Assembly (NCBI GenBank): GCA_037447655.1
Contig: JBBHKE010000159.1
Span: 610,974-674,973, forward strand
Length of the DNA: 64,000 nt
Direction of reading: 5' to 3'
Source of the DNA: Zygnema cylindricum
Lineage: Eukaryota > Streptophyta > Zygnematophyceae > Zygnematales > Zygnemataceae
Shown: in pieces, positions 8,797-30,065 of the stretch
Layout: each line of letters begins with the position of its first letter
Position numbering within the stretch: the first letter of the stretch is position 1
Notes under the pieces: model-generated
What the model saw: only the letters and a program-made list of their open reading frames with translations
Told to the model about the DNA's origin: nothing
Databases searched by the model: none
Position numbers and translations under genes: made by a program

Positions 8797-9062
8797 AGAT
8801 ATGATGTCGAGCGTGCTTGGGAAACAGAGGAGAAGGGCCCACCACCAGAAATAGAGTGCATTGGGGTCTTGGAAACCAGGAGGTTTAGGGGAGATGTCCG
8901 AGAAGGTGTGCATAGAAGACCTGCAATCCACCCCAAATGCTGATGCGGTTCCGGATGCATGACCATGCCCTTCTCTGTCCCTCTCTTCCCCAGGGATATG
9001 CATGGGTAATAATAAGGGAGCAAGTGAAAAGAGGAAAAAGTACCCCGTACCCCCCCAAATTT
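8797..9062. repeat. Direct repeat A, copy 1 (outside the left LTR)
   Basis: About 266 bases beginning near GTCGAGCGTGC and ending in a run of C then AAAT. It is clearly homologous, same orientation, to 10243-10503 on the other side of the left LTR. Probably a retrotransposon fragment; it has no gene. Confidence 0.8.
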
Positions 9063-10242
9063 TGTGATGATCCACCGGAAGCCCACTAAATGCTACACTC
9101 CTAAATACTATCCCAAGGATGGAAAGGGAATGTTGGTCATCTAATGCGGCCCACAAGAACTCCGGACAGAAACCAAGGACGACCACAACAATGCGCAAAT
9201 AACTCCCACGCATAAATATATAAACAATAAATATCGGCTCTTTAGATTAAACAATATCACCTTGCCCCAGAAAATAGAAATAAAGATAGAAATCAATGAA
9301 AATGGTGAAGCAAGCTCACATACCCCGGAGTGCAACGAAAACAAAGCTTAGAAGAAGAAACCTCTCCAAATTGCCCCGAAGACTGATATGATTCTCCCTC
9401 AACCCTCGGTTCCGCTGTACGGATCCGACCAGACCTTCTAAGTTTCAAATAGCGAAAGTCGAAACCGCCCAAAGAGAGGATAGTGCCAACCACCCACTCG
9501 AGCTACGATTTCCACAAAAGACAATCCAAAACAAAGATGGCAATAGAGTCCACGACACAATGCAACATTTCTCAAAAAAAAATGATTGAATTCTCTGGGG
9601 GTTTTCTCAAGAGACAGTACTGAAAAAGCAACCTGTCTCCTTCGGCCCTAAGTGCCTTATACCAGCAAAGTTTGTCCTACTGCAAGTGCCAAAGTCAAAG
9701 CATTATCGTACGAACATAAGACAAAACAGGCTTTACTATTCTTAGGGCAAAAAGTTAGGCGACTAGCTCCGGGTGGATTTGAAGCCAAATGTCCTCTTAT
9801 GATACACTCATGAGCCACAAAGTCCTGAATTGACGTGAAACGCCTAACTTTGACCCAAAGTAATAAATGCTCTGCCCGTCTGGTGGACCTGAACTAACAT
9901 CCTACTGACACCCAACAACAAAATCTCATCCTACTGACACCCAACAACAAAATCTACAGGTCTATCCCAAAAGTTACGTGGCGTTCCATAATGTACCCCC
10001 TCCAGGGACAGGTGGAAACTGGTCGTATGTAACAGAATCGAAATCTTTGATGCGAAATAAATCCGTCGTCCGACCTCCGTTATGCGCGAAATAAAGTGCG
10101 TTCCGCTCAATTTGGTAAATTGAAGGATTTTGTCCAACGGGGTGCACTCACTCATCCATACTTTGAGGACCGTACCGGTTTAAAAGGGTTCGGAAATCCT
10201 TGGTGATATAAAGGTGTGCCGGAAACGCACACGAGCCTGATA
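9063..10242 (-). repeat. Left LTR of the outer retrotransposon (3' LTR in element sense)
   Basis: About 1180 bases matching 28081-29267 along their whole length, with many substitutions and small indels. In element sense it ends in CACA; its outer start is altered (TATCAGG against TGTCAGG in the other LTR). It contains a private tandem duplication of about 28 bases near 9899-9957 (CATCCTACTGACACCCAACA unit) that is single in the other LTR, so this arose after insertion. Confidence 0.85.
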
Positions 10243-10503
10243 GCTGTCGAGCGTGCCTGGGAAACATAAGAGAAGGGCCCACCGCCATAAGTAGAGTACA
10301 TTGAGGTCTTGGTAACCAAGAGGTTTAGGGGAGATGTCTGAGAAGGTGTGCATAGAAGACCTTCAATCCACCCCAAATGCTAATGCGGTTCCGGATGCGT
10401 GACCATACCCTTCTCTGTCCCTCTGTTTCCCGAGGATATGCATGGGTAATAATAAGGGAACGAGTGAAAAGAGGAAAAAGTACCCAGTACCCCCCGAAAT
10501 TCC
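10243..10503. repeat. Direct repeat A, copy 2 (inside the left LTR)
   Basis: Homologous to 8797-9062 in the same orientation, so the left LTR is sandwiched between two copies of the same about 260-base segment. This may be a second, truncated LTR-like unit or a recombination product. Confidence 0.8.
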
Positions 10504-10514
10504 CCCTCGCTCTT

Positions 10515-10603
10515 AGTCCCGTGTGACTGAGAGGTTAAGACAAATTTGTCGTCGAAATTGTAGTCCCCACATAACTACGAATTTGCGGTTAGAGAGCGGG
10601 ACT
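10515..10603 (+). other. Class II tRNA-like sequence, degenerate
   Basis: 89 bases that fold like a long-variable-arm (Ser/Leu class) tRNA. A perfect 7-bp acceptor stem (AGTCCCG with CGGGACT), an A-box-like TGACTGAGAGG, a 5-bp anticodon-type stem (AATTT/AAATT) with a 7-base loop, and a 5-bp variable arm (GTAGT/ACTAC). The T arm and B box are not canonical, so it is probably a tRNA-derived relic, not a working gene. It lies where the PHD-like reading frame of the opposite strand breaks off. Confidence 0.35.
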
Positions 10604-11225
10604 CCCAAATCGGCGGCAGGCAGAATTCATGCCACCGTTGATGACAGCGATCACACATTGACAAGAAGCCGTGCAAAGAAGACACATTGCAGGCACATGA
10701 ACAGAAGGGTGGATCTACAAAGTAAGTGAGGTGGAAAGTGGGTTCGTCCTCTAGCCATTGTAGATGGCAAGGAGCCACATTGATCTGGTTCTCTTTAATT
10801 TTGCGGCCTTCCTTTCCTTCCAAGTTCAAAACCCCTTTGTTAGAGACCTCCACTGCTTTTAGAATCACCCGTCCTGCCGAAATGTCCAAAGTGTCCTTCT
10901 ACTGTTGCATGCGATACACGAAATCCCCAGGCATGAATCGCCGTTGCCGAGGGACATAATTGCCGCTCCTGCGTTGGGAATACCAAAGCTGATCCATGTG
11001 CTGAGCAGCTTGTTAATTGCCCATAACCAGAGGCATTTCCCGGTGAAATACCTTGGCCCTGTCGGCAATCAGCTTGCTTCTCCACAGTCCCCCGGTTGTC
11101 CATCTCCGGAAGTATAACCCAACTCCAGGAAGGATGGGATGTCGGCCGAAGAGAATGAAGTAAGGGCTATAGGAATGGAGGGAGGACTGCCTACTGAATC
11201 TGTATCCCATTGCAATCCAATGCAC
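10575..11225 (-). pseudogene. Integrase C-terminal part with PHD-finger-like module
   Basis: Minus-strand continuation of the outer element's polyprotein after the integrase core, broken by stops. It contains the beta-rich tail of Ty3 integrases (GDFVYR near 10930, then a VLNLEGKEGRKIKENQ segment and VAPCHLQ). Then comes a Cys-rich block at about 10705-10612: CSCACN, a nine-residue spacer, then CDRCHQRWHEFCLPP. The spacing Cx2Cx4Hx2C, with Trp before His and Leu-Pro-Pro after the last Cys, is typical of the central part of PHD fingers. The final Cys pair is absent because the frame ends in the tRNA-like segment. PHD fingers usually read histone H3 tails; here this would suit targeting of integration (inference). 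Confidence 0.7.
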
Positions 11226-11408
11226 CCGTTTGTCCCATTCCCCTAAATCCTCTTCACTGCATATTTTCGTCGTTCAGCCGAAGAGAATGAAGTAAGGGCT
11301 ATAGGAATGGAGGGAGGCCTGCCTACTGAATATGTATCCCATGGCAATCGAAGGCACCCGTTTATCCCATTGCCCTAAATCCTCTTCCACTGCATATTTC
11401 CGTAGTGA
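11145..11408. repeat. Tandem duplication, about 132-base unit, in the integrase tail
   Basis: Two adjacent copies beginning GCCGAAGAGAATGAAGTAAG at 11145 and 11277. The duplication lies within the decayed integrase region and must post-date loss of function of this copy. Confidence 0.9.
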
Positions 11409-11413
11409 CCGCT

Positions 11414-11968
11414 TCACTGTTTGTACGCACCTTTCACCAAACCGTCGGCTTGGGGGTGGTCTAGACTGGTCAACCGGTGGTCAATGAGGCACTTCTCCAA
11501 AAGGTTAGAAATTTCTCTGGCAAACTCGGACCGCTGATCAGTCAGAACTTCGGCCGGTGCTCCAAATTGGGACAGCACCCTCAACAAGAAGTCGTCCGCG
11601 ATTGCTTTCGATTCCTTCCAAAGGAGAACCACTAGTTCGATCCATTTGGAGAAGTGTTCAATCATTACCAATACAAAACAGTTTCCCCTTCGGCTAGTGG
11701 TAAGTGGTCCCAATAGATCTAATGACTATCTGTAAAACATCCCCTGGATGTGGAGGGAGTGAAGTTCAGTTCCACCCTTTTTGTCAAAAGCAGTTTTCAC
11801 CCGGTCACAAGAAAGACACGTCTGTACCACACGATTAACCTGGGCCCGCAACCCATGCCACCAATACAACCCTGTGACCAGTGAGGTGGGCCGTTTCTGT
11901 CCGAAATGCTCGCATTGCTGGTGAAGATGAACAATGAGGGTTTCACGATCTGCCAGACGAGGAACCAC
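11414..11968 (-). pseudogene. Integrase of the outer retrotransposon
   Basis: Two minus-strand ORFs separated by one stop near 11725. The first holds the zinc-binding HHCC region (HLHQQCEH then TCLSCDR). The second holds the catalytic core: LDLLGPL with the first Asp just beside the stop, LTDQRSEF with the second Asp, then LDHPQADGLVKG where the catalytic Glu expected after the Gly-Leu-Val is Lys. Together with the stop this copy cannot be active. The family is clear from the HPQADG block, typical of Ty3 integrases. Confidence 0.85.
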
Positions 11969-12370
11969 TTTCTTCGTACCATCGGCCCATTTTTAGAGAA
12001 GAATGCCTCGGTCCCATTCATACGCCGCCATCTAGGAATGAACCCGGCACAAGTGAATTCCGACCAGGTGGTGAAGAGGGGAACCTTTCTCGATAGACCT
12101 AAGGGAATCGTGGTCATTCCAAATATCCTTGCGGCAGGCTCCAAAGGGAGCCTGCCCCTCCACGTCTGCAGCAAAAGTTGACAGTTCCTTTTCAGCTCGA
12201 GCGTGCCAAATAAAGGCAAAGGAAGCCTTGATAAGTCCCAGGCTGAGCTCGGGGTCTTCATCGTGGCGCGCCCTTCTAGAGTCCCTGGTGGAAGGGTCTG
12301 GATTTCTGTTGAGTTTGTCTGCATTCCCATGGATCTCCAGGTCTCGGTGGATAATGCTGAAGTCGTATTC

Positions 12371-12721
12371 CTACAAGATGAGAACCCATCTGGCCAGCTT
12401 GCCGGTCAACTTACAGTTCTCCATTATCCATTTGAGGGGCTGGTGATCCGTAATAAAGGTGAAGTGTACTCCATAGAGGTAAGGTCTGAAATGCTCGATG
12501 GCCCATACCGCCGCAAGTAATTCTTCATGGTAACTGCTGTAATTCCCCTCGGCGCTGTTGTTACTCCGGCTTGCGTAGGTCACTACGTAGTTAGCCCCTA
12601 CATTGTCCAATTGAGCCAAAATTGCTCCCAATCCGAACCTGCTCCAATCAGTATAAAGGGAGAAAGGCCGCTGGTGATCTGGCATCCGAAGCACAAGATG
12701 CTGCTTCAGGGAATCTTTCAA
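12371..12721 (-). pseudogene. RNase H domain of the outer retrotransposon
   Basis: ORF with the Ty3 RNase H signatures LYTDWSRFGLGAIL (normally TDAS), YASRSNNSAEGNYSSYHEE, ELLAAVWAIEHFRPYLYG, and TDHQPLKWIM. It lies directly downstream of RT in element sense and is out of frame with it. Confidence 0.85.
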
Positions 12722-12881
12722 GAATTGAAAAGCAGTCTACTGTTCTTCCGCCCACTGCCACTCCTGGTCCTTTTGCAATAATTAGTTCAATGGCTGGGCG
12801 TGGCTATTGAATTCGGGAATAAACCTCCGAAATTAGTTGGCTAGTCCCACGAAAGTGGGAAGGGCTTAAATATCTTGCGGG

Positions 12882-12985
12882 GGTGGAAGGCCGTCAAGCG
12901 CTGCACCTTAACTATGTGGGGACCCACTGCGGAGGTGGAAGGGCGTCAAGGGCTGCACCTTAACCATGTGGGGACCCATTATCTT
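12882..12985. repeat. Tandem duplication, about 52-base unit, at the RT/RNase H junction
   Basis: The block starting GGTGGAAGG and running through GTCAAG, CTGCACCTTAA and ATGTGGGGACC occurs twice in a row. A local decay event in the outer element. Confidence 0.85.
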
Positions 12986-14041
12986 AGGAGTCACCTCATG
13001 ACCTTGATAAATGATTTTCTGCACCCCAAAAATGCCTTTCCCCGGGTGACACTTCAAGCCCGCTGCTAAGAGAGCCCGTAAAACGATCTGTATATGCTTT
13101 GAGTGTTCCTCGAATGTCTTGAAGAAAATAATCACATCGTCGATGTAACACCGTGCGCAATCGATTCCCCGGAGGGCCTCGTCCATGGCCCGTTGAAATT
13201 TGGCATGTGCATTTTTAAGACCAAATGGCATGTACAACCATTCATACAACCTGGATCCGGCCAAAAAAGCGGTCCACTCTCGGTGCTTCGGTTCCATTCC
13301 AATCTGGTGGAACCCATTCTTCATATCCAACGTAGATTAAATGTTGGCCCGAGCAAAAGAAATAAAGATCTCTTCCGGGGTTGGCATGGGATAACGGTAG
13401 GAGACAGTTGCATCGTTGAGCATCCGATAGTTTCCACACATCCGAAAATCTACCGTTTTCTCAGATGAGTCTTTCTTTGGAGGGAGCTCTGTTGGAGAGC
13501 CAAACCCATGTAACCCTGTACTTTCGTGCACCAGCCCCACGTCCACCAAAGTCTGCACCTTTGCGGTGATAAACTCCTTCTCTTTGAAGCTGAGAGGGTA
13601 TTGTTTCTTCAAAACAGTTGCCGTCTCGTCGGTCAGGTCAATGCGAAAAGGGGTTCCCTTATAGATCTCTACATCTGTGTTAGACCAAGAGAACACATGC
13701 TTGTTCTCCTCTAACAGCTTGGAGAGCCGCGCCTTTTGTTGTGGGTCTAGCTGTTCCCCTAAAGTCCAGTCTATCTTCCTGGGTTCAACTATCGCCAAGG
13801 CTTCCGGTGGTCGACACCAAAGTGAGATGTGGAATTCCAGTTCTACCTGTGGATCTGTCCCTTGCTCAGCTGCTAAAACGCTACTACAGACAACTTCCCC
13901 TAAGCTGCCCTGTTCTGAGCCACCGCTCCCCCCCACAGAGAAAACTCCTGGATTCAGTGTTCTCTTTGAATGTAATATGCTGATTTTTTCCCTTCTTGCC
14001 TCTCTCCCCCTCAAGCTGTGACTTACTTGCATAGCCAACAA
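12908..14041 (-). pseudogene. Reverse transcriptase of the outer retrotransposon
   Basis: Two ORFs (14041-13337 and 13330-12908) split by a stop at about 13337. They contain the RT blocks LPPKKDSSEKTVDFRM, RMCGNYRMLND, LDMKNGFHQIGM, MPFGLKNAHAKFQRAMDEAL and the catalytic YIDD box (bases 13136-13147), with VIIFFKTFEEH after it. Upstream, IDLTDETATVLKKQYPLSF is the usual lead-in to Ty3 RT. Catalytic Asp pair intact; the reading frame is not. Confidence 0.9.
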
Positions 14042-14079
14042 CTGTGGAGCTTGAAGGTATGTTGCCCGTGACTATGAAG

Positions 14080-15065
14080 ACTAGAGGCTAGAGAATGCCA
14101 GAGAATGTTGCAGCACCCATGAAATTGCATTCAAATCGATACTTTGCCTGATTAAGATGCACCTATATGGGCCGAGACCCCTGGTGATGCTGTGGTTGCC
14201 AGTCGAAATCCCATTGTTTGTTCCTGTTCCTCAATACGTGGTGCCGTCCAAGTAGCGGTCGTTTAGTCAAAGATCATTCATGGTGCACATTTCCGGTAAG
14301 CGTGGGTGTTAGGGAAAGATACCAGGGTTGGTAGGGCCTTTCGTGGATTCCCAGGTTTATTACAACCGAAAAAGGGTGTTCGATCGGCTGTGGCCATTCG
14401 CCCTGGTCCGAGAATTTGTTGAACTGTGATGTTGGGATCCGGAACTTGTATTTTCAAAAGTTGTTGGAGGACGGGAAGTGTAGCCAAGTTGGTCCAATAA
14501 GCCCGAACTCGGTGGGCTTTGGATCCGACATGAGCTGCATCAAACACTATGGGAGTCCTTAGAACCTTGGTCACTTTGTTCATGCTGTTGACTCCCTGTT
14601 TCCTTTTATCATTTGTGGGGTGAACATTTTCCAAGACGTACCCCACTGGTGTGTCTTGGCGTTCTTGTAACCCTGTTATTAGTCGTGTCATTTGAAAAAA
14701 ATGTTTTGCTACGGACATTCGGTGTCCTCTGCTTTGTCCCGCTAACGAATACCCCTAGCAAGGCCATCCAGCGATTACTTAGTCTACCCTTCCAAGCTTC
14801 TCCAAATGTAAATTTGTGATGTTGTCTACATTTTGTGGAAGCGTACAGTAAGAGTTAGAAATGGCGGGCACTGGGAGTTACTGTGGATAAAGTTCGTGTA
14901 GCTGTTCCAGTCGATACTCACTGACTGCACGGGCGTCCGGGTCAATCTCGACTGCCGAGTACGTTTCTACTGGGTATAATGCCAGAAATTAGCGAGAGAA
15001 TCCGGAGTCAGGACGGCTTCTAGGTCGGAACTAATGTCGAAAAATAACGAGATAATCCGGAGTCT
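14080..15065 (-). pseudogene. Cytosine-5 DNA methyltransferase domain in the retrotransposon polyprotein
   Basis: Transfers methyl from SAM to cytosine C5 in DNA. Conserved motifs appear in the right order on the minus strand: I, ISLFFDISSDLEAVL (about 15060-15010, one frame off the rest); II, YSAVEIDPDARAV (14961-14926); IV, VIAGWPC with the catalytic Cys codon at 14760-14758, followed by a TAG where Gln is expected and then GYSLAG; VI, LENVHP (ENV at 14631-14623); VIII, AHRVRAYWTNL (14520-14485); IX, RIEEQEQTMGFR (about 14237-14203); X, QSIDLNAISW (about 14145-14115, shifted frame). The segment sits between protease and RT, where Ty3 elements normally have no such domain. At least five in-frame stops and two frameshifts make this copy dead. 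Charophyte and dinoflagellate retrotransposons with captured methyltransferases have been described, which fits the position and the host. Confidence 0.88.
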
Positions 15066-15565
15066 TGAGGGCGGGATCTCCAATGACACCAATTGTAGGT
15101 TGAATTCCTTCCTAGGTTAGGAACAGTTGGGAAATCGGGCCGGATGAACCTTGTTGTCCCAGATGATATGGCGGCAAAGCTCATGTCCACTCCCCGCCGA
15201 AGGGTGGCCATTTGTACCAATCTGCTTTGATACTCTCTTTCCCACCGCTTGGAAATGGGGAATTGCTAGATGGAATTCCCGATATCGGTGGAATCTTTGA
15301 ACAACTCTAAAGGTGTGGATGCAGAGTACACCGGATAGCATCTAGCCACAAAAACAGTCGTTTTCCCTGGGTTCTATAAATCCAAGGGGACCACCACTTT
15401 GGTGCCCTCGGGATCTTCCGGGTCTGAAATTGTAACTTGTTCTTTCTAGATGCTCAACTCCATGTTCAACCTTGTCCACGTAGCCATACCCAACAGAATT
15501 TCAAATTGCTTACCTTCCACCACGAGGAATGGGAGTTAAAGGAAGAGGGGTTAAATTTGTACGTG

Positions 15566-16237
15566 TTAACCTGCGTCATCTGGGAATTTAGTTTCCATAG
15601 CTTTAATGATGCCATATACTGGTTGGCTCCCACAGCTGACCGTACTCAGGCATATTTCACTGGGACTGATTTTTGGCTTGATTTCCTCGAGCATTTTCTG
15701 TAATGTTGAGGTGGTTATGACGTTAGGGAGGGCTCGGGTATCCACCACTGTATCTAGATACCCGCTCTATTCTTTAATTTTAAAATTACCTGTCCTGTTA
15801 AGAATAAGCGCCACCGACAAGGCATTATAATCTCTATTCGCAATAGAAGTTTTCGGTTCTGCCGACATGAAGAATATCTTAGGTGGTTCAGCCAACGGAA
15901 CCGTTTCCCTCTGGGTGTGAATCTGTTCCCCTATTGCTTGAATGAGAATCTCTTTGGGCAAATTGTAGGAGGAAGCTAGCGTTTTGGCGTAGGTAAAGGC
16001 GTAGGGCATCTGGTGTCGTACTAACTTAAATGCCGGTTTGGAAGGAGAAGGGTAAGTTTTGGGCGATGAAATGGGTGAGTCCTCGTCTGCCAATTTCTCA
16101 TGTTTTCCCCCCCTTGCTTTCTTCATCTTTTGCGTCAGATTTCCCTGTTGGATGTGTAATTGGTGGATCTGTTGTTGGTCTTTTAGACAAGTATCAGTCG
16201 AACCATTCCTGACCTGTTTCAATGGTTGAAACATCAT
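15566..16237 (-). pseudogene. Protease region of the outer retrotransposon
   Basis: A 156-residue ORF (16237-15767) runs into a second (15748-15566) across a stop. At the junction lies a retropepsin-type core, VVDTRALPNVI, where the active-site triad expected as Asp-Thr-Gly reads Asp-Thr-Arg. Then a hydrophobic/polar stretch TTSTLQKMLEEI. The upstream ORF is Lys/Pro/Gln-rich linker. The Gly to Arg change would be expected to abolish activity. Confidence 0.7.
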
Positions 16238-16750: not shown

Positions 16751-17095
16751 GTTAGTTGGTCATGGTTCATCTGGAGAACGACGTTCCCAAGGATACAAAA
16801 GTTGCAATGGCAGAGGATTATGCAATTCTGTGTCCTCCATTGGACCACAGAATACAGGAAGCCTCTAGATAGTATTTAACTAACCCACTTTAAGCCACAA
16901 CCACTGCTGCCCAAGAAGGCAAACTGACAATTTGACTGCACCCCTCAGTGGTTTACTTCCCTCTTAACTAATTAGAGATCTGAGCATTATCAAATTTAGG
17001 AGGTCTGACTTGTCTTAACTGGGATTGAGAAATTTTAGGGGTTTCGGAGCGGGGAGTAGGTTTTATAAGTTTCTTTTGTGATCGGCGTGCGGTCT

Positions 17096-18052
17096 TGTAA
17101 CAGTAATAGCGGATCGAACTTGGTTATAAAAGGGTATTTAGGTGTTATGATTATAGAGTACTAAATTTGGTAGACGTCCGCGAAAGAATCACGCTATTTG
17201 GAGTTATATTTTAAAAGTTACAGGGATGGGTGTATTTAGGTGACAGCGTGGGGTCTAAATAACAAGTGGGTATCATTGAAACGGGTTGAGGGTCAAATCA
17301 GTACCGAAATAACGCGTGTACGTTTCATAAAGTTATAATGAAACGTTTAGTATGCACGGTGGTTCGTTTCTTACAAATTTTAGTACGAACATCACTTTCA
17401 CTTAAGGGAATTTCGTAGGAAGTTTCGCGTGCAAAATTTGTTACGCACGATCGTGCGAAGTCGCGTTTTGTTTGGCGCGCACTTTTGCACGTAAAAGTTA
17501 CGTAGTGAAACGTAACGTTTGATTGGTTAGTAAAGTGCTAATTAGTTAGTAAGAGATTTCACACGTTTTTGCATTGGTAAGTCTGAGTCCTTGCTGATCA
17601 ATGATTAGCCCACGTAAAAGCTTGTTAAAACGGCCTGGCGAGTCCAGGGTGATGATGGATAAATAGTGAAATGTAAGAGGAGAGTAGACATCTTTTTCTT
17701 TGGAAAAGTTTGTGGAAATTCCGGTTGATCTTGGTGCTGAGCGATTAATACCAAATTGGAGAAAAGGCATTTTTGAATTGAAATCTCTTCCTAACTAATT
17801 AGTGTTTTAGTAGTTAGGAGATAGAATTATTAAGAGTGGAGAGTAGTGGAAAACACTTTAATAAGAAGGGTGAAGCCATGAGGGCAAGAGACCAAGCTAA
17901 TGTTATGTGGACAGAAGCTTCTTCTAATTTAAAGTTTATCCTTATGTGAGTGTGGTCCAATGCGGATGTGTATTTTCCAATGTGTGGAATGTGTGGTTGG
18001 GATTGTTTGTAGTAATGGGAGTTTTTTCTGAGAAAAAGGAGATCCTGTTAGA
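17096..18052 (+). repeat. Left (5') LTR of nested element
   Basis: Begins TGTAACAGTAATAGCGGATC and ends GATCCTGTTAGA; aligns along its length with 23874-24840 with scattered substitutions and small indels. A rich set of ACGCAC/GTGCG and CGTAACG-type motifs near 17400-17520 probably holds the LTR promoter region (inference). Confidence 0.95.
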
Positions 18053-18054
18053 TA

Positions 18055-18068
18055 TGGTATCGGAGCTT
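18055..18068 (+). promoter_or_regulatory. Primer-binding site matching initiator tRNA-Met
   Basis: TGGTATCGGAGC follows the left LTR after two bases. The usual plant PBS is TGGTATCAGAGC, so one mismatch. Marks the start of minus-strand synthesis. Confidence 0.9.
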
Positions 18069-18861
18069 TGGTTAGAAACCAGGGAGAAGTTTGCTCACTC
18101 GAATATCGACTGCCGCGACCGGTGAGGGTGCTCTAATATGTGTTAGTAGAACCACAATGTGAAGTGGTAGGGGATTGGAGGGAAACCGAGTGATCACACT
18201 GCCAACGGGCGCTGGTTAGATGTGGGGCGTGCTCAGATCTTAAAGACTATGGCGGGGTGGGCAGTGTAGCCACCGCTGAAACTCACTCTAACTACCTAGA
18301 GGCCAAACAAACTTGCCTTCTCCTAGCAATGATTCATGTGTAGAGGGAGGGCTTGAAGTCATGAAAGGTGAGGATGTGAGAATTAAAGAGTAAAAGATCT
18401 TGATGTAGTGGGAAGTGGGAAGTGGGAAATTTGCTAATGGAGGAGAAAGAAAGTGGAGTACTTCACTTTTTCAAGAGCAAAGGAGTCCAGGAATGTCTCA
18501 AAACATTTCAAACCCTATATTGTTACCTTTGATTGCTTTCAATCTTGCTGTTGCAATATTTGTGGTTAAATATTACCTTTGAGAGCTTTCAATTTTGCTG
18601 TTTCAAAATTTGTGGGGAAATTCTTACCTTTTGTTTCAATGTTGGGAAATTGAAGTTTGAATTTGCACTAAATTACTGTCAATGTTTTTTTTATTTCTCA
18701 AATTTTGACATTTTCAAAGGATTCGTTAAGGAGAATAAGTCTTAGATTGGAACAATCTTAGGACTTCAAATCTGCAGCAAATTTTTTTGGGAAATTATAT
18801 TTTTTCTTTTCTTTTGCTTGATTTCATTGTGTGTTAATGACAAATTTTGCATGGAAACGTG

Positions 18862-20074
18862 AAATGGAGAATGCTTAGAATGTGTTGAAGAAGTTTACTA
18901 TGAAATTGGTCAAATGATTTAATAATCATGCTGCCGCTGAAGATGAAACCATTTCCGAATTGAAAAGTGAATTGAAAGTTGTTAAAGAAAATGGAAATGT
19001 TTCAAATGAGAAATTAGATGTACTTATTAACTTATTTCAGACCAAAATGATATTAATGACCAAAAGGGTGAAAGTAGTAAAAGGAATGTCAGTTTTACGG
19101 AGGATGATCATGATAGACCTAAGAAGATAAGAGATCTGAAATTGTCTATTAGTGAGGCACCATCGTTTTATGGTAAGAAGATTGATCAGTTGGATGCTTG
19201 GATTTTTCATATGGAGTATTAGTTGGAATATAGAAATTGTGATCGTGATGATTACACTTCTTTTGCTGTTAGCTGTTTGAAAGGCGATGCTCAGATTTGG
19301 TATTACACTCAAAGAATGTCTAAATTGATTCCTGATTATGCTAATTGGGAAAATTTTAAAACCGCGATCAAATCGCGATTCTTGTCTATCACTTTTAAAT
19401 CCAGAATGGAAGAAAAGTGGTTGAACTGTATGCAGACTTGATCTGTGAAGGATTACATTGTGGAATTTGACTCATCTAGCATTCACGTCATAGATTTGAC
19501 TGATGAAATGGCTAAGTTGCATTTCTTAAATTATCTAAACCCTATACTCAAATCAGAATTGAAACATCAAAAATTTAATAATTTGAAAGAATTACAAGAT
19601 AAAGCATTGGAATTAGAGGATCATTTGGGGTGTAATCGGAAAACTAGATGACTTATGAGTAATTTGAATGAAGTATCAGAGTGGGATGAGGGGGAATTTG
19701 TGGCTGAGGGTCTGAATGCTAGTTTGGTCAGTAGGCAAAATATTTTCAGGGGAAATCAGAAGGGTGGACAGAGTGTTAATGCAGGAAACAAATTTAACAA
19801 TAGAGGGGGATACATTAAAATTCATAAACCAAGCATTAATGCTCAGAAGCCTAACCTTATCATCCCCACATGCACTATTTGTCAGAAAAAGGGTCATAGA
19901 GCATTTGAGTGTGCACAACTGAAAAAGATTAACTGTTATAACTGTGGAGAGGAGGGACATTTTAGTAGAGAGTGCACAAAACCCAAAAAGAAAGTCACTT
20001 GTTTCAAATGCGGAGGTCCAGATCATTACACTAAAAACTGTACAGATAAAGGTTCTCTTAAACAATCGATGTAA
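18862..20074 (+). pseudogene. Gag of nested element, three CCHC zinc knuckles
   Basis: Nucleocapsid and capsid protein, broken by stops at about 19220, 19441 and 19649. Capsid-type sequence: LDAWIFHMEY, SCLKGDAQIWYY, NWENFKTAIKSRF, then EFDSSSIHVIDLTDEMAKLH. The C-terminal part holds three CX2CX4HX4C knuckles: CTICQKKGHRAFEC (from 19870), CYNCGEEGHFSREC (from 19933), CFKCGGPDHYTKNC (from 20000). Start not determinable because of stops. Confidence 0.88.
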
Positions 20075-20164
20075 ATGAAGGTCTCCAAGAGGATATTGCA
20101 TATACCTAGTTGAGCAAGAAGCCCAAGAGGTGGGAAACGGAAAGGACTAACTGAAAGTCCTCAG

Positions 20165-20670
20165 TTGAGTCAACCGGATCCAGAAGTTAAAGAGTTAACT
20201 CAGGAGGGCAAATTAATGAATGGAAAAGTTAAGATAACTGAATTTATTATGATTCTCGATACACTGCATAGTTTAAAGAATCCTTCTGATAAAATTCTCA
20301 ACAACAAACCTATGTTAGGACAGTTAAGTAATGATGACACCAGACACAATTTGATTAGATTCGAGTCATTAGTGGAAAGAAAACCGTTGAGAGTAATGGT
20401 ATATTCAGGTGCCACACATAGTTTTATTTCACATAGTTTGTAGAGGAAAATAAAATTCCTACTATCATAATGGGAAAGCCTTAACATGTTCAAGTGGTAA
20501 ATGGTAATAAGTCCACATTAGACTTACAAACTGACACGATAGAAGTTGATATCCAGGGTCATAAAATGAAAGTTGTGTGTGGAATAATGAATTTAGGAAG
20601 TGAAGAACTAATTTTGGGAAAGCATTGGTTAATTGAACACAATCCTTAAATTAATTAGGAAATTAACACC
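20165..20670 (+). pseudogene. Aspartic protease region of nested element
   Basis: A retropepsin-like core reads VMVYSGATHSFISH: the active-site Asp before Ser-Gly-Ala is Tyr, and a stop follows. Downstream, GSEELILGKHWLIEHNP is the usual second conserved protease block (normally LGMDWL). Family clear, activity lost. Confidence 0.8.
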
Positions 20671-22340
20671 TTGAAAGTGAAGTCTGATAACGGTTGGAAG
20701 GTTTTGCAAGCATTATCTCCTAACAAATTGCATAGGAATCATATAAATAACATAACCGGATTGGGAGTGGGAGGTATGATATGTGCTAAACAATTTAAAA
20801 AGCACCTAAATGATAAAACAAATCATGCTTTCTTGTTATTAGTAACTGAGGCAGTTACTAATGAAAAGGGGGGAGAAAACATTAACATTGATGTCATCCC
20901 TAAATCAGACACCACTAAAACTCTCGAAGAACTAAAATCTGATTTTGAAACTGACATTAAAACATCTGATGTTGCTGTTAAAGATTTGATTTTTGAAATT
21001 TCAAGATGTTTTTCCAAGTAATTTACCCTCAGAAAAGGCCACCTTCCCGAGATGTGGAACATATTATTAACCTTGAACCAGGATGCAACCCTTCCGTCAC
21101 AAGAATTTATAAGCACAGTTTATTTGAGCAAGAGAAATTAAAGAAACACATCAAAGAACTCCTACAGAAAAGACATATTAAGTCCAGCAAATCACCGTAC
21201 AGAGCACCAGTTCTCTTCGTCAAAAAGAAGGACGGAACGTTGAGAATGTGTGTCGATTATCGTAGTCTGAAAAATATTACAGTGAAGGATAAGTATCCGT
21301 TACTTTTAATTTCTGATATGATAGATCATTTAAAAGGTGCTAAAGTATTTTTGTTGATTGACCTGCGTAGTGGCTTTAATCAGGTGCCAATTAGAATTGA
21401 AGATGTTGATAAAACTGCTTTCAAGACTAGGGTGGGTCATTTCGAATAGATAGTGATGCCATTCGGCTTAACGAATGCACCGCCTACTTACCAAAGATTA
21501 ATGAACCAAACCTTTTCAGATTACATAGATGAGTTTGTCCAAGTGTTTATAGATGATATTTTAGTTTTCAGTGAATCTAAAGAACAACATGTAATTCATT
21601 TAAGAAGAGTGTTAGAAAGGTTAAGAGAAAGAAAATTACATGGAAAATTGTCAAAATCCACCTTTCTTAAAAGTGAACAATTATTTTTGGGACATATAGT
21701 TAGTGGGGAAGGTGTTAAAACAGATCCATCCAAAATTTTAGCAATCCAAAATTGGAAACAACCTACTAATGTCACAGAAGTTAGATCGTTTTTGGGATTG
21801 GCCATTTATTACACGAAATTTATCAAGAACCTCCGAATGATCGTTGCACCTTTGACGGATTTACTTCGGGAGAGGGAGACGTTTGTGTGGGGAGCTGATC
21901 ATGAGAGAGCATTCGAGGAACTAAAAGGGAAGTTGACCTCTGCCCCTACACCGGTGTATCCTGACCTTGCTGGGGAATTTGAAGTTTTGATCACTACAGA
22001 TGCATCTGATAAAGGTCTAGGTGCAGTTATAAGTCAAAAAGTCGGCAAACACGCTCATCCTATGCTTTTGAGTCCAAAAAATTCAATGATGGTGAAAACA
22101 ACTATACAGCACAGGTGCATTGGTGAAATGGCGTTGTTATATGCATAATAAAGAATTTACAGTTCACTGTGATAATAAAACACTCTTTTATTTACAAAGA
22201 TTAAGTGATGCACAGATTATGACTGGCAGACAGGTTAGGTGGATGCAAAAATTAGCATATTTCAAATTTAATGTCAAACATATTCCTGGGAAGACAAATG
22301 TAGTCGCAGATCGTATAAGTAGATATTTTGAAATAAGTGT
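20671..22340 (+). pseudogene. Reverse transcriptase and RNase H of nested element
   Basis: RT blocks: [65 protein letters not shown], and FIDD (21548-21559), the Phe variant of YIDD. Then LFLGHIVSGEGVKTDPSK and RSFLGLAIYYTKFIKN. RNase H: TTDASDKGLGAVISQ, then in another frame FTVHCDNKTLFYL and KHIPGKTNVVADRISR. Defects: a stop at about 21448 just before MPFGL (TAG where Trp is expected) and a frameshift near 22110. Confidence 0.93.
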
Positions 22341-22529
22341 TATGGTTCAGGATGAATTGTTTTTAGATACTGTTAGAAATGGTTATGATAAAGATCATTA
22401 TTTTGCTGTGATTTGCATGAATATTTCGAGAGGGAATTCTGAACCATTGAATGAGAGGCATGTCAAAAACTTTAGACTAAAGGATGGTTTACTGTATTTG
22501 CAGATTGGGGATAGATTATGCATTCCTGA

Positions 22530-23586
22530 AATGGGAGACTTAAGAAAACAAATTTTATGGGAAGCTCATGAGCATTTATGACATCTAGGTCGAGGTAAAA
22601 CTCTTAGTCGATTGCAAAGTAGATAATTTTAGCCTGGGATGGCAAACGAGGTGTCAAAACATGTGGAAAGTTGTGTCTTTTGCCAACAAAGTAAACCTAG
22701 TACCCAAAAACCTAAAGGTCTCTTAAAACCTTTGGATATCTCTGAAAGACCGTGGGAATCTATCAATATGGATTTTATTGTCAAGTTGCTTGCTACATCT
22801 AAAAGGAATGACAATATCATGGTCGTAGTCGATAGGTTCACTAAAATGGCAATCTTTATCCCTTACAAAACCACTCATTCAGTTATAGATATTGCAAAGT
22901 TATATTTTGACAACGTGGTCAGACATCAGGAAGTCCCTCTATCTATAGTCAGTGATAGAGATTCTAAATTTACGTATACTTTTTGGAAAGAATTACAACA
23001 AAATTTAGGCTTTGAATTGAAAATGAGTACCGCTTATCATCATCTGACAGATGGACAGACAGAAAGGATGAACCGTACACTAGAGGAAATGCTTAGGACT
23101 GTTTGTAGTGGAATTCAGAACACATGGGAATCTAAACTGCCATTAATGGAATTTGCATACAATTCATGTAAACACGCTAGTACAGGATTCTCACCATTTA
23201 AAGTTGCATACAGATACCAACCTAGAGAATCATTAGACTTAATAACAGGGGTCACTCAAGAGAATATAGGTTATGGAATAGAGTTTTGGGAATATGTTCA
23301 AACAATTTGGAAAACTGTCCGAGATGCATTAGTGGAGGCACAAAGGAGGCAAGAATTAAATGCTAACCGCAAACGAGGTGATTGGGTGTTACGCACAGGT
23401 GACAAGGTTTGGCTTTCTAAAACTCATTACAGGTGCAAGATTGAGGGACAATTGGATCCTACGGGGAAATTTGCTCCTAAGTACATTGGACCATTTACTG
23501 TAATCGAGATGATATTGTTAGTTGTTGCAAATTGGACTTTCCGCCTTCAACAAAAATTAATCCAGGGATACACATCAGCCAATTGA
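22530..23586 (+). pseudogene. Integrase of nested element
   Basis: HHCC zinc region HEHL then H then CVFCQQSK (with two stops between 22580 and 22625). The catalytic core follows in a 315-residue open frame: first Asp in INMDFIVKL, VVDRFTKMAIFIP, second Asp in SIVSDRDSKFT, third residue Glu in LTDGQTERMNRTLEEML, then WESKLPLMEFAYN. C-terminal GDKVWLSKTHYR and KYIGPFTVIEM. All three catalytic residues are present. Confidence 0.93.
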
Positions 23587-23589
23587 AAC

Positions 23590-23810
23590 CAACGAAGCTT
23601 CGACCAACTGAAGGAGAATTGGAATTGGATCCCTCAATAAATATAGGACCTGAAGTCCACAAATGGGTAATAGATTAGGTTGGTCAACGATTCAAAGTCG
23701 GCGATACTATATTCTGGCAAATGCATTATCTAGGAAGGCCTGAGGATGAGTTGACTTTAGAGGATAAAAATTTTGAGTTTTTACAAGGTATTGGAGGGAT
23801 AATAATATAG
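23590..23810 (+). pseudogene. Chromodomain-like tail of nested integrase
   Basis: After a frame break the sequence KPTKLRPTEGELELDP precedes a stretch reading FKVGDTIFWQMHYLGRPEDE then LTLEDKNFEFLQG. Aromatic and acidic positions resemble the chromodomain of chromoviruses (YLVKWxGxPxxExTWE type). Divergent, so a tentative call; it would place the element among chromoviruses. Confidence 0.5.
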
Positions 23811-23860
23811 AAGTCTCGTCTTGAGAATTAAAGGTGTTTTAACTGAGGTCAATTAAAAAT

Positions 23861-23870
23861 AAGGAGGGGA
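23861..23870 (+). promoter_or_regulatory. Polypurine tract of nested element
   Basis: AAGGAGGGGA three bases before the right LTR start (TGTAACA at 23874). Primer for plus-strand synthesis. Confidence 0.85.
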
Positions 23871-23873
23871 TGA

Positions 23874-24840
23874 TGTAACATTAATAGCGGATCGAACTTG
23901 TTTATTAAAGGGTATTTAGGTGTTAAGATTATAGAGTACTAAAATTGGTAGACGTCCGCGAAAGAATCACGCTATTTGGAGTTATATTTTAAAAGTTATA
24001 GCGATGGGTGTATTTAGGTGACAGCGTGGAGTCTAAATAACAAGTGGGTATCATTGAAACGGGTTAAGGGTCAAATCAGTACCGAAATTACGCGTGTACG
24101 TTTCATAAAGTTCTAACGAAACGTTTAGTATGCACGGTGGTTCGTTTCGTACAAATTTTAGAATGAAACGTCACTTTTACTTGAGTGAATTTCGTGGGAA
24201 GTTTCGCGTGCGAAATTTGTTACGCACGATCGTGCGAAGTCGCGTTTTTTTTGGCGAGCACTTTTGCACGTAAATATTACGTAGTGAAACGTAATGTTTG
24301 ATTGGTTAGTAAAATGCTAAGTAGTTAGTAAGAGATTTCGCACGTTTTTGCATTGGACATTGTGAGTCCTTGCTGATCAATGACTGGCCTAGGTAAAAGC
24401 CTGTTGAAGCGGATCGTTGAATCAGGTCTGGCGAGTCAGGGCGATGATGGATAAATAGTTAAGTGTAACAAGAGAGTAGACATCTTTTCATTTGGAAAAG
24501 TTTGTGGAAATTTCGTCTGATCTTGGTCCTAAGCGATTAATACCAAATTGGAGAAAAGGCATTTTTGCATTGAAATCTCTTATTAACTAAATATTGTTTT
24601 GGTAGTAAGGAGATAGAATTATTAAGAGTGGAGAGTAGTGTAAAACACTTTAATAAAAGGGTTGAGCCACGAGGGCAAGAGACCAAGCTAATGTTACGTG
24701 GACAGAAGCTTCTTCTAATTTAAAGTTTATCCTTATATGAGTGTGGTCCAATGTGGATGTGTATTTTCCAATGCATGGAGTGTGTGGTTGGGATTTTTTG
24801 TAGTAATGAGATTTTCTGAGAAGAAGGAGATCCTGTTACA
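23874..24840 (+). repeat. Right (3') LTR of nested element
   Basis: 967 bases, TGTAACA...TGTTACA termini forming the short inverted TG...CA ends. Differs from the left copy by point changes and small indels, so the insertion is not recent but clearly younger than the outer element. Confidence 0.95.
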
Positions 24841-24870
24841 GGTCCCCTCCCCCTTCTCGTTCCTTGCGTT

Positions 24871-25077
24871 TCAGCTGCTTCCGTGTTCTTTCGGCACATT
24901 CTTTCTCAAACTCCTTTTGCTTGATAGCGAGTTCCGCGTTGATCTTCCGGGGCATCGTTTCCAACCGTGACCGGTTTGGTTGCAGTTCACGCAGTTGTAC
25001 ATGTATACTTTTTCAACCGCAGCTATTGCATGTTGCAATCTCGTCTCAACTTCTTGTTTCCCCTTATTATTCCGCAA
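24871..25077 (-). pseudogene. Gag nucleocapsid of the outer retrotransposon, one zinc knuckle
   Basis: Minus-strand ORF with a single CCHC knuckle, CVNCNQTGHGWKRCP, preceded by QHAIAAVEKVYMYN. The nested element interrupts the polyprotein about 30 codons downstream of it. Confidence 0.75.
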
Positions 25078-25430
25078 AACCTAGAGTTCTGTTTGTTCCT
25101 CTTGGTTATAAGAGGATTCCCCCGTGAATCCTGCGAAGTTGGCTCGCACTTTGCTGGTAACAATTTTTTTTTTGGCCTCGCTGTTTACAAATAATCATAT
25201 AACTTCATTGCAGCCAATGAAATATCTTGCGCCGTGTGATTCCTGTCGTGGATTGCATGACTCGCACTCTTATTGTCAAGAGCTGCCTGTCTTGTTGGTC
25301 CGAACGAATTTCGAACAACGGCATAATATTTCATGGCCATGGCTGGTGTGTCAATGGTAGACAACTTGGTCTTATGACAAAGGCTCGGGAGGCGCTAGAA
25401 CAACGTATGCGGGGTTTCATTTTTCAAACA

Positions 25431-26413
25431 TCAGAACTCCGTCAATTCCTTAATTGCACTTTCGTTCTTATTGGTACAAAGGAGGCTCCAGGCGTCTAGC
25501 TGAGTGGTGCAAAGAGTTGGGTTGGCCACCATCCGGGTAGCTGCCTCAGCGTCCTGTACAACCTGCAGATGGTTAACAAAGGCTTTTTCTTGGGCTTGGA
25601 GTTTCATGTCCATAGTGAAAGTGGCGGTAACGAGACTGCTGCGGCGGCAGCCAAGTCGGTGGCTGCGTCAAGGGCTTCGGCGTCAAGCGCCGAATTTGAG
25701 ATTTTGATGTTAAGAGCCATCAAAGAGGGTAGACGCTCCTTATAGTCGGCCAAAGCTCCTCCAGCTAGATAGTTTGCCATCATAGGAAAAAGAGTGGTCT
25801 CACAATCCCCTAGGATGGCCCCTCCCCTGTATTTGTTAATTTCGGACTGCGTGAAGGATTTCCACAACATTTCAAAATTTGAAAAAACGATCTCCGAGCT
25901 TTCTCCCGTAAAGATCGTTATATCCCCCATTACTTTCTCCTCCCCAGCAAGGTTGGTGAACTATGGAAAGGTTGGTTTGGTGGGGCTGACAAACTGAGGT
26001 TGGTTTGGTGGGGCTGACAAACTGAGCCAGTGAAATTGCTTCGGGATCTCCCCCTTCTATATCCAAACCTTTTTCTCCTCCGGGTGTAACAGCTGGGATC
26101 CTCCCCCCCCCATTGATGATGGTTTTGCTGTCAAAGGAGGTGTGGAATTTCTTGCTCCTCTATATTCATGAGTGTATTGTTCCTCTCTTAGAACTGTCTC
26201 TACCGATGGGATGTGGAGACGAGGATTGTTCAAAGGCCTTTGTGGAACAGACGGTGGCGGAGACGGAGACGTAGACTGTTGGGGCTCGGTAGGATGAGGA
26301 GTCTGTCTCCTGGTTCGCCTCTTGGATGTCTCAAGAGGTAAAGTTCCTGAGATGGTACAAGGAGAACGCCGGTGAGGAGGAGAATAGGCAAAGACATCGT
26401 ATTTGTAGGGCAA
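25431..26413 (-). pseudogene. Gag capsid region of the outer retrotransposon
   Basis: Three minus-strand pieces. 26413-26057 is Pro/Ser/Thr-rich. 25930-25604 contains FSNFEMLWKSFTQSEINKY and CETTLFPMMANYLAGGALADY, a capsid-like helical stretch. 25613-25431 contains MKLQAQEKAFVNHLQVVQDA. Homology to known gag is weak by eye; the assignment rests on position just upstream of the knuckle. A 29-base tandem duplication (GGTTGGTTTGGTGGGGCTGA) lies at about 25970-26026. Confidence 0.6.
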
Positions 26414-26826
26414 AACAAGCGAGTCCGTTGACCCACGGATTGCCGCAGCAGGAGAAATAGATGGTGAAGGAGAAGAGGTAAGAGCACGGGATTGTGGAGA
26501 TTGTCCAGCTGGAGAAAAGGGAGGAGTGAATGCCTTTAAGGGAATGTGAGCCCTTTCGTCCGGTCATAATTCCACCAAGGCTTCTACTGCGAAAGCGTCT
26601 TCCACCGAAACAACAGTTGACACTCCTAGAAAAGAAGCAGCAATGTCGGAAGTATATCTACACCCAAACCCTTCCCATTAGGTCTTCTGGTTCCACCCCC
26701 TTCAGGTTGAAGATGGGTATCTTGGTTAGTCTCCGAAGGAGGCATCCCTAGTGGCGTTTATGAGATAGATGTGGGTTTCTGAACCGGTGTTCTGGGGTAT
26801 GATCTTGTCCAAGGAGAAGTGAGCCT

Positions 26827-28080: not shown

Positions 28081-29267
28081 TGTGCTGATCCGCCGCAAGC
28101 CCACTAAATGCTACACTCTTTAATACTATCCCAAAGATGGAAAGGGAATGTTGGTCGTCAAATTCGACCCACAAGAACTCCGGACAGAAACGAAGGACGA
28201 CCACAACAGTGCGCAAATAACTCCCACGCAGAAATATAGAAACAATAAATATCGGCTTTTTCAGATTAAACAATATCACCCTTCCCGTGAAAATAGAAAT
28301 AAAGATATAAATCAATGAAAATGGTGAAGCAAGCTCACATACCCTAGAGTGCAAGGAAGACAAAAATTAGAAGAAGAAACCTCTCCAAATTGCCTTGAAG
28401 ACTGATATGATTCTCCTTCAACCCTCGGTTTCGCTGTACGGATCCAATTAGACTCTTCTAAGTTTCAAATAGCGAAAGTCCAAACCGCCCAAAGAGAGGA
28501 TAGTGCCAACCACCCACCCGAGCTACGATTTCCACAAAAGACAATCCAAAACAAAGATGGCAATAGAGTCCAGGACACAATGCAACAGTTCTCCAACAGA
28601 AAGATTGATTGAATTCTCTGGGGGTTTTCTCAGGAGACATTACTGAAAAAACAACCTGTATCGTTCGACCAAAAGTGCCTTAAACCAGCAAAGTTTGTCC
28701 TACTACAAGTGCCAAAGTCAAGCAATACCAGAAGCCAATCAGCGGCCAGAAATTGTTATCGTACAGACATAAGATAAAACAGGTTGTACTACACTTAGGG
28801 CAAAAAGCTAGGCGACTAGCTCCGGGTGGATTTGAAGCCAAATGTCCTCCTATGATACACTCATGAGCCACAAAGTCCTGAATTAACGTGAAACGCCTAA
28901 CTTTGATCCAAAGTAATAAATGCTTTGCCCGTCTGGTGGACCTGAACTAACATCCTACTGTCACCGAACAGCAAAATCTATAGGTCTATCCCAAAAGTTA
29001 CGTGGCGTTCCACAATGTACCCCCCACAAAGACAGGTGGAAACTGGTCGCATGTAGCAGAATGGAAATCTTTGAAGCGAAATAACTCCGTCTTCCGACCT
29101 CCGTTAGGGGCGAAATAAAGTGCGTTCCGCTCAGTTTGGTAAATAAAAGATTTTTTTTCCGGTAGGGTGCACTCACTCCTCCGTACTTTGAGGACCGTAC
29201 CGGTTCAAAAGGGTTCGGAAATCCTTGGTGATATAAATGTGTGCCGGAAACGCACACGAGCCTGACA
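28081..29267 (-). repeat. Right LTR of the outer retrotransposon (5' LTR in element sense)
   Basis: 1187 bases; starts TGTCAGGCTCGTGTG and ends GATCAGCACA in element sense. Homologous to 9063-10242. Carries about 30 extra bases near 28717-28755 absent from the other copy. Confidence 0.88.
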
Positions 29268-30065
29268 ATGATCCAAAATAGACGGATATAACAACCTCAC
29301 ATGTGGCATAGGCGATGGGCCATTGGACAAAGTGGAATAAGTCCACCGAAAACCATCAAAATCTTTGTTAAATAATATCCTATCAGATCTGCTTTATTGT
29401 CCATTGACATTCATAGTCTCCCGCGCTTTTCATTTTTTAAATTGTAATTTGTAACCAATTATTATGACTATTAAAAAATTACAAATATTTATTTCAACTA
29501 CTGCCATTTTTAAAATTCAATGCCTATAATCACACGCATATAAAAATAGAGAACACTATAAAAGAAAACAAGTTAGGTTTTTTTTTAATGTGCGACTATC
29601 AAGTAGTCGTCTGCTTTGTCTTCATTTTTTACAATTGGATGTCTTTTTAACAAGTTTAGCTTTAACCCCTTCGCTTTATTCGGAGATTGTTACCTCATCC
29701 TATGTCTTTTAGTTTTGCGAATATAGTTTATTTGTCAAAAAATGACATCAATACTATAATCAGCCTACTCCACCCTTTAAGACATTGAGGACCACACATA
29801 ATGTTGTAAACTATTAATGTGTTTGTCGAAAAAAAGCGAGCAAAACAATGACCATTTTACACTCTTGAAAAGAAGAGGCTTCGGTGGCAACAATATACCT
29901 GAAACAAATGTCGTCTTTTCCTGGATACTAAAGAATATGATGTAAAGATTGCACTGAAAAGATAAGTCGAGTCAAAATGCACAATACTTAAAATTAAAAA
30001 CTGTATTTAACTTATGATTAACAATTGCACATTGTCACCATGAACTATATATTTCCATTGTGAAA
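29268..30065. other. AT-rich intergenic, nothing recognised
   Basis: No ORF or repeat family identified between the LTR and the inverted-repeat element. Confidence 0.6.

Follow-up and report, generated by a model that had tools for sequence, protein, structure and literature searches.

A probable DNMT3-type methyltransferase in a Ty3/Gypsy retrotransposon family with DIRS-like repeats and a C-terminal PHD finger in the streptophyte alga Zygnema cylindricum

Hosts silence transposons by cytosine methylation, so a transposon that conserves a methyltransferase of its own presents a paradox. In the literature examined, this paradox has rested so far on one streptophyte alga and on dinoflagellates. 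KnitGypsy-Dnmt3 of Klebsormidium nitens is a Gypsy element with a Dnmt3 domain in Pol, and a figure legend in its description gives its repeats a DIRS structure (PMC5890265). In the portions of that paper available to us, yeast assays show CG methylation by the domains of SymbioDIRS-Dnmt3 and none by the Gypsy domain of Klebsormidium, a negative that the authors call “inconclusive” (PMC5890265). For streptophytes and dinoflagellates, a 2025 paper citing the 2018 work speaks of DNMT3 in retrotransposons that it calls “LTR Copia and DIRS” (PMC12344493, seen in part), and a 2019 opinion paper, likewise seen in part, holds that land plants lack transposon methylases (PMC6338049). The first-pass annotation of the locus described here had named such captures (de Mendoza 2018), and the precedent proved correct and close, KnitGypsy-Dnmt3 being the case in point (PMC5890265, in part).

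That annotation placed a cytosine-5 methyltransferase on the minus strand of the window (the whole 64,000-nucleotide stretch of Zygnema cylindricum DNA that we analyzed), between the retropepsin and the reverse transcriptase (RT) of one Ty3-type element, with its conserved motifs in the correct order and in a copy that is now dead. Each of these points held. PF00145 matched the minus-strand frame across 14077-15084 (stops read as X) at an E-value of 3.1e-8 and 33.9 bits, against a cut-off of 22 bits, and did so in the correct frame only, the two other minus frames giving no Pfam match. Motifs I, II, IV (GWPC), VI (LENV) and VIII (AHRVR) follow in that order. Motif I, from about 15062, lies in a different frame from motifs II to VIII, and comparison with the open copy L013 puts the C-terminal part of the domain (about 14140-14084) in the frame of the RT open reading frame. 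With nine stops in the 336 codons of the main frame and at least two frame changes, the copy is dead. Remnants located by tblastn on either side confirm the position between retropepsin and RT (Table 1); the decayed retropepsin piece itself gave no Pfam match, and the active site DTGA is present in the retropepsin of L013. Among solved structures, the window domain is closest to DNMT3A (1.2e-9), DNMT3C (5.6e-8) and DNMT3B (5.7e-7), and all PDB matches up to an E-value of 0.001 are to these three proteins exclusively (1.2e-9 to 5.5e-6). The first other family is M.HhaI at 0.022, and chains of DRM, CMT or DNMT1/MET1 are absent from the matches up to an E-value of 10. Chance similarity was considered for this domain and is ruled out by the Pfam and PDB E-values. 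We put at roughly 80% the probability that 14080-15065 is a decayed DNMT3-type methyltransferase within a Ty3/Gypsy element that belongs to a large family.

The family was sought in the alga's own genome (G000, 352.8 Mb in 2,689 contigs). PF00145 gave 782 first-look candidates, a count that includes host genes and chance candidates and is not an element copy number; 123 of them were scored, and all 123 exceeded the cut-off. Seven of eight loci returned by this search match the element family. The eighth, L007:1498-1797, is a host exon whose closest structure is 4fsx (E-value of 4e-29), which we take to be the maize chromomethylase ZMET2; the host has its own predicted chromomethylase-like, non-DNMT3 methyltransferase. 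Twenty loci were then fetched, chosen mainly for long open frames, so that the sample is biased toward these, and mapped by tblastn with the domains of two reference copies, L013 for subfamily 1, which is that of the window, and L009 for subfamily 2. This assigned nine loci to subfamily 1 and the other 11 to subfamily 2. All 20 carry the methyltransferase, for which they were picked, and in 18 of them RT and RNase H come after it in the same orientation; the exceptions are L023 and L024, where the methyltransferase is present and RT was not found in the stretch fetched. Retropepsin lies upstream of the methyltransferase in all nine subfamily 1 loci and was located in two loci of subfamily 2, in L018 by Pfam and in L009 as DTGA. 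By tblastn, a PHD finger is present in 15 of the 20 loci and was not found in L016 or L021-L024.

The longest open frames of family copies reach 2,395 amino acids, and the order retropepsin, methyltransferase, RT, RNase H, integrase recurs in copies with long open frames, in line with the proposed Ty3-type capture. When seven open frames were scanned with Pfam, DNA_methylase was matched in three (L009, L013 and L018; 8e-13 to 2e-11), and RVT_1, RNase H, H2C2, rve and PHD in four; weak matches below cut-off were to aspartyl protease in two and to CCHC in two, and the gag frame of L013 had no Pfam match. Both reference copies have a DTG protease and an IDD RT, and the D-D-E residues of the integrase were read by eye. 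The order of retropepsin, RT, RNase H and integrase, together with the DDE integrase, is that of Ty3/Gypsy elements (Pfam, tblastn and residues), and the polyprotein order of the family is gag-PR-DNMT3-RT-RNaseH-IN-PHD. That a methyltransferase fragment landed by chance in one dead element can be set aside as having next to no probability: the degenerate window copy by itself would allow it, but the methyltransferase precedes RT in 18 of the 20 other loci, these loci fall into two subfamilies whose reference copies are only 38% (methyltransferase) and 53% (RT) alike, and retropepsin lies upstream throughout subfamily 1, which refutes a lone accident and excludes that the segment is present only here. 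Scans with methyltransferase and RT pieces confirmed no relatives in viral contigs.

The open domains of the reference copies (METHYLTRANSFERASE) bear out the DNMT3 affinity, which the first-pass annotation had left to a comparison with MET1, CMT, DRM and DNMT3. In the PDB search, DNMT3A was matched at 1.1e-14 by L013 and at 8.6e-11 by L009. L013 also reached DRM2 at 0.08 and, at 0.034, 4onj, an entry named only DNA methyltransferase that is presumably tobacco DRM; L009 matched no DRM up to an E-value of 1, and DNMT1-type chains were absent from the PDB matches of both. The two domains are thus closest to DNMT3, and their motif order is unrearranged. An origin from MET1, CMT or DRM was considered and rejected, since the nearest PDB neighbors of the window, L013 and L009 domains are DNMT3.

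The PHD finger forms the C-terminus of Pol. It exceeded the Pfam cut-off in L009 (1.5e-9) and L018 (3.5e-10) and fell below it in L028 (4.3e-5, 23.9 bits against 24) and L013 (0.0044); the C4HC3 zinc-binding pattern was read by eye in L009 and L013. The nearest solved relatives of the L009 finger are those of PHF12, BAZ2B, WSTF, KDM5-type proteins and PHF21A, several of which bind unmodified histone H3 tails. Among the literature matches listed, judged by titles and abstract starts, none joins a PHD finger to Ty3/Gypsy or to an integrase.

Between L013 and L009, identity is 38% in the methyltransferase, 41% in the PHD finger, 53% in RT, 64% in RNase H and 55% in the integrase. None of the 13 aligned copies has lost the catalytic Cys; motif IV reads GWPCQG (Pro-Cys) in six of six aligned subfamily 1 copies and G(W/S)ECQG (Glu-Cys) in seven of seven from subfamily 2. 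The two subfamilies separate in both FastTree trees, one of the methyltransferase and one of RT, each built from the window and 13 loci. Within subfamily 1, L028 and then L022 are outermost in both trees, with a differing and weakly supported inner order; within subfamily 2, both trees pair L011 with L026 and group L009, L010, L015 and L027. Distances in the two domains correlate at 0.87 overall, at 0.87 within subfamily 1 and at 0.32 within subfamily 2, the last figure including the decayed RT of L027 (63% identity). The simplest reading would be a single capture of the methyltransferase before the subfamilies split. A divergent branch of subfamily 1, L019 and L028, is 81-86% identical to L013 in RT, 51-60% in the methyltransferase and 44-45% in the PHD finger, which suggests either fast evolution or domain exchange.

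Ratios of dN/dS were taken from full-length single matches only (6 + 7 of the 20 loci for the methyltransferase; L016 has one stop), and most methyltransferase pairs were saturated at synonymous sites and set aside. For the methyltransferase, dN/dS was 0.13-0.41 in subfamily 1 (median of 0.27; 6 of 15 pairs unsaturated) and 0.17-0.25 in subfamily 2 (median of 0.24; 5 of 21). Medians for subfamilies 1 and 2 were 0.06 (seven pairs) and 0.10 (four pairs) in RT, 0.13 (two pairs) and 0.18 (three pairs) in the integrase, and 0.18 (four pairs) and 0.08 (nine pairs) in the PHD finger. From these few pairs, in a sample biased toward open frames, the methyltransferase looks to be under purifying selection in both subfamilies, weaker than that on RT.

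In the window, the methyltransferase element spans 29267 to 8805 on the minus strand and is interrupted by an ordinary Ty3 element; by subtraction it measures about 12.7 kb without the insertion (Table 1). The Ty3-type identity given by the first-pass annotation stood; the element is larger than reported there, and the PHD remnant and the gag region beyond the nested element had been missed. Because gag matches flank 17096-24840 on both sides, and because of the boundaries, one element is nested in another. Self-comparison revealed two nested direct-repeat pairs; a first reading of the four repeat blocks as mismatched LTRs of two elements was rejected. The nested Ty3 element has a target duplication with four of five bases alike (GGTCT/GGTCC), and eight pieces of it scanned with Pfam contained CCHC, RVP_2, RT, RNase H and integrase and no methyltransferase. 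Its LTRs are 92.2% identical outside gaps, against 92.2% for the A repeats and 90.4% for the B repeats; these identities are similar, so the insertion order is known from the nesting and not from dating. A tandem duplication at 11142-11403 touches the 3′ part of the integrase. The gag open reading frames of the window had no Pfam match, and Rfam and ARAGORN found nothing on the window.

Table 1. Features of the methyltransferase element and of the element nested in it, in window coordinates
Feature	Position	Strand	Evidence or remark
4-bp target site duplication, right copy (ATGA on +)	29268..29271	.	Identical to 8801-8804
Repeat A1, 5′ element end, begins TGTC	28081..29267	-	92.2% identity to A2 outside gaps, 87% with gaps
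gag region, 5′ part, decayed	24860..26674	-	Four tblastn matches to L013 gag, 48-73% identity
Ordinary Ty3 element nested in gag	17096..24840	+	LTRs 17096-18052 and 23874-24840
gag continuation beyond nested element	16941..17075	-	78% identity to L013 gag
Retropepsin (PR) remnant	15461..15820	-	78% identity to L013 PR (tblastn)
Probable DNMT3-type cytosine methyltransferase, decayed	14080..15065	-	Pfam, PDB, tblastn, alignment
Reverse transcriptase	12971..13495	-	RVT_1 2.9e-20 on 12911-13336; 87% identity to L013
RNase H	12350..12754	-	PF17917 1.4e-33 on 12374-12736 (Pfam); tblastn
Integrase, H2C2 zinc finger and rve core, decayed	11364..11974	-	Pfam 2.8e-11 and 4.4e-10; tblastn
C-terminal PHD finger remnant	10554..10742	-	62% identity to L013 PHD (tblastn)
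Repeat B1, directly after G-rich tract	10245..10502	-	90.4% identity to B2 (outside gaps)
2-bp spacer GC between B1 and A2	10243..10244	-	Boundary read
Repeat A2	9063..10242	-	Self-comparison with A1
Repeat B2, 3′ element end, ends GACA	8805..9062	-	Self-comparison with B1
4-bp target site duplication, left copy (ATGA on +)	8801..8804	.	Identical to 29268-29271

Elsewhere in the window, a GAGGGG hexamer array of 857 bp (36555-37411) has an extreme GC skew and is open in several frames on both strands, an array of 15-bp units (660 bp; 39651-40310) lies between ankyrin-repeat exons at 38747-39532 and 40993-41379, and a 206-bp tandem repeat (51716-52305) has an inverted further copy. Exons with an MraY signature and glycosyl transferase 4, of peptidoglycan synthesis type, occupy 62826-63998 on this plant-lineage contig. 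Together with PC-esterase and DOG1-domain exons and the chromomethylase-like exon, they are host genes of streptophyte type.

Flanks were read for the window element and for 13 of the 20 loci (all except L016, L019, L021, L022, L023, L024 and L028). Split direct repeats in the DIRS-like order A-coding-B-A-B were found in eight of these 14 elements, namely, that of the window and those on contigs C1344, C829, C1915, C704, C1042, C449 and C2602 (the stretch read on C2602 does not reach the start of A1), and no plain LTR-internal-LTR copy was recognized among the 14 in the stretches read. Some insertions are recent, for A1 matches A2 at 100% identity along 931 bp in C1344 and at 99% or more in C829 and C1915. 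At the B1|A2 junction, C1344, C829, C1915, C1042, C449, C2602 and C1407 carry GACA-GC-TGTC, and the window and C704 carry a form of it decayed by one base. The step from A2 to B2 is flush, or nearly so (to about 2 bases), in the window, C1344, C829, C1915, C449 and C2602; in C704 it is blurred by a 60-bp duplication. The outer ends are TGTC and GACA, with one base decayed in A1 of C1042 and with the ends of C704 set by the terminal motif, at most 2 bases from the BLAST edge. Seven A-B-A-B copies had both ends read, and five of them (window, C1344, C829, C1915 and C704) have an exact 4-bp target duplication, identical 4-mers at two random window places having a chance of 0.0054; in C449, three of four bases are alike, and in C1042 no duplication was found at the outer ends. 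Four copies have A-coding-B only (C2053, C783, C1374 and C2577), of which C2053, whose B was recognized by the terminal motif alone, has an exact duplication (GTGG), and the other three have none. C1407 has B-A-B without a recognized A1, and an A2 was not seen in the part of C544 that was read. A G-rich tract precedes B1 in six of six copies printed, and the 18 bases after A1 hold no TGG-type primer site. On C1042, a further A-like copy lies beyond B2 (280839-281387, L033), perhaps a tandem or second insertion.

This anatomy suggests how such an element might integrate. An RNA running from A1 to A2 would be copied in the usual LTR way, the repeat made by RT then being B-GC-A; given the G-rich tract directly before B1 and the coding region after A1, ordinary reverse transcription would yield B-GC-A at both ends. 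The linear product would close to a circle with the end of A against the start of B, and the DDE integrase would cut one internal GACA-GC-TGTC junction, dropping the 2-bp spacer as in retroviral 3′ processing. Insertion of the opened circle would leave A-coding-BA-B flanked by a 4-bp duplication. From the end products, we judge the odds that the integrase cuts a circle at its internal junction and inserts the opened circle to be about even; the full repeat set is missing in six of 14 elements, which counts against this route. The same repeat order could instead arise by recombination between tandem or neighboring LTR elements, a reading suggested by the copies that lack target duplications or have a single B, and recombination between B1 and B2 would explain the A-coding-B copy C2053 with its kept duplication. 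We nevertheless regard recombination as distinctly unlikely, because copies that have diverged still share the B|A boundary with its GC spacer and an A|B boundary that is flush or nearly so, and because exact duplications flank the outer ends of A1 and B2 in five of seven copies, which products of recombination should lack. Four-base-pair target duplications are a trait of DDE integrases. Such duplications, and the Pfam scan of seven open frames, which found an rve integrase and no tyrosine recombinase, make it most improbable that the element is a DIRS-type retrotransposon integrating by tyrosine recombinase, even though its repeat order equals the DIRS order as described in the available portions of PMC5890265.

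For the circle that integrase cutting presupposes, minicircles of IS3-family elements, with abutted ends, are an analogue. Precedent for circle cutting comes from spumavirus integrase, a retroviral-type enzyme that likewise cleaves a palindrome of joined ends, at the junction of 2-LTR circles (PMC1180852, seen in part); that junction consists of ordinary LTR ends, whereas the joined site of the element described here lies inside the repeat expected from its reverse transcription. A circle-integration model for a retrotransposon with a DDE integrase was not among the open-licence literature matches listed.

What the captured domains do may be approached through base composition. In coding regions, the observed/expected ratio of CpG is 0.63-0.70 in eight loci of the Pro-Cys subfamily 1, with 0.65 and 0.67 for the two stretches of the window copy; the 11 loci of the Glu-Cys subfamily 2 give 0.82-0.94, without overlap (L009-L022 and L024-L028; L023 left out). 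The GpC ratio differs less, at 0.79-0.86 versus 0.89-1.00. This CpG contrast, a single one between two lineages, would be the pattern expected if the Pro-Cys enzyme methylated its own element and the Glu-Cys one had ceased to do so. The nested Ty3 element, which has no methyltransferase, has a CpG ratio of 0.49, so CpG depletion is not specific; other stretches of the window range from 0.68 to 1.19. CpG-type transitions account for 8 of 49 in the A pair and 6 of 17 in the B pair of the window copy, no strong sign of CpG decay since its insertion.

Borne on the polyprotein, the DNMT3 domain would act on the fresh DNA copy of the element, methylating it at CG while reverse transcription proceeds or once it is complete; the PHD finger, at the integrase end, would bind histone H3, steering insertion or methylation to a chromatin type. 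We hold this combined role to be a little short of an even chance. Somewhat unlikely, in our estimate, is that the captured domain no longer methylates element DNA and instead binds nucleic acid, methylates RNA or acts to slow transposition. Subfamily 2, with Glu in place of the motif IV Pro in every aligned copy, little CpG depletion and low dN/dS, speaks for such a change of function, and both RNA methylation (for a LINE family) and slowed transposition are raised in the available parts of PMC5890265; the Pro-Cys pair kept throughout the CpG-depleted subfamily 1 and the catalytic Cys kept in both subfamilies speak against it. With a second streptophyte host, many copies, a histone reader and subfamilies with and without canonical motif IV, the question raised by the paradox becomes testable: does the domain methylate the element, and does loss of the Pro change that? 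The repeat anatomy likewise suggests a testable route by which a retroelement with a DDE integrase could integrate from circles. As a tentative overall picture, to which we give less weight than to the integration route or the combined domain role, this would be a lineage with its own chromatin program, in which DNMT3 writes methylation, the PHD finger reads H3 and circles integrate through a paired-end site inside the terminal repeat, with one subfamily having moved from Pro-Cys to Glu-Cys under selection.

Chromoviruses are Ty3 elements with a C-terminal chromodomain on the integrase. They resemble the family described here in that their polyprotein closes at its integrase end with a histone reader, and differ from it in that the reader is a chromodomain and not a PHD finger, the LTRs are ordinary and there is no methyltransferase. 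Phalaenopsis Gypsy elements with AlkB have likewise captured a nucleic-acid-modifying enzyme, in that case an RNA demethylase in an additional open reading frame, and the abstract describing them mentions no DNA methyltransferase (PMC9289625, in part). SymbioDIRS-Dnmt3 of Symbiodinium shares Dnmt3 in Pol and A-coding-B-A-B repeats with our family but has a tyrosine recombinase and other domain orders where ours has a DDE integrase (PMC5890265, in part). Among the open-licence literature matches listed, by titles and abstract starts, there was neither a second streptophyte case nor one bearing a PHD finger. The closest relative in kind is KnitGypsy-Dnmt3, which, likened by description, has in common with the Zygnema family a Dnmt3 inside a Gypsy Pol and DIRS-like repeats, and for which purifying selection on the methyltransferase is reported as well (PMC5890265, in part). 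Its host differs, the K. nitens assembly measuring 104 Mb in 1,814 scaffolds (PMC11096116, in part) against the 352.8 Mb and 2,689 contigs here. The PHD finger and the Glu-Cys subfamily set our family apart from it: the main text of PMC5890265 nowhere contains the string “phd”, and the portions available to us make no mention of target duplications or a GC-spaced junction for KnitGypsy-Dnmt3. A methyltransferase-bearing Gypsy element with DIRS-like repeats is thus a kind already known since KnitGypsy-Dnmt3 in 2018 (PMC5890265, in part); what the Zygnema family adds is a second host, a PHD finger, a Glu-Cys subfamily and the anatomy of integration.
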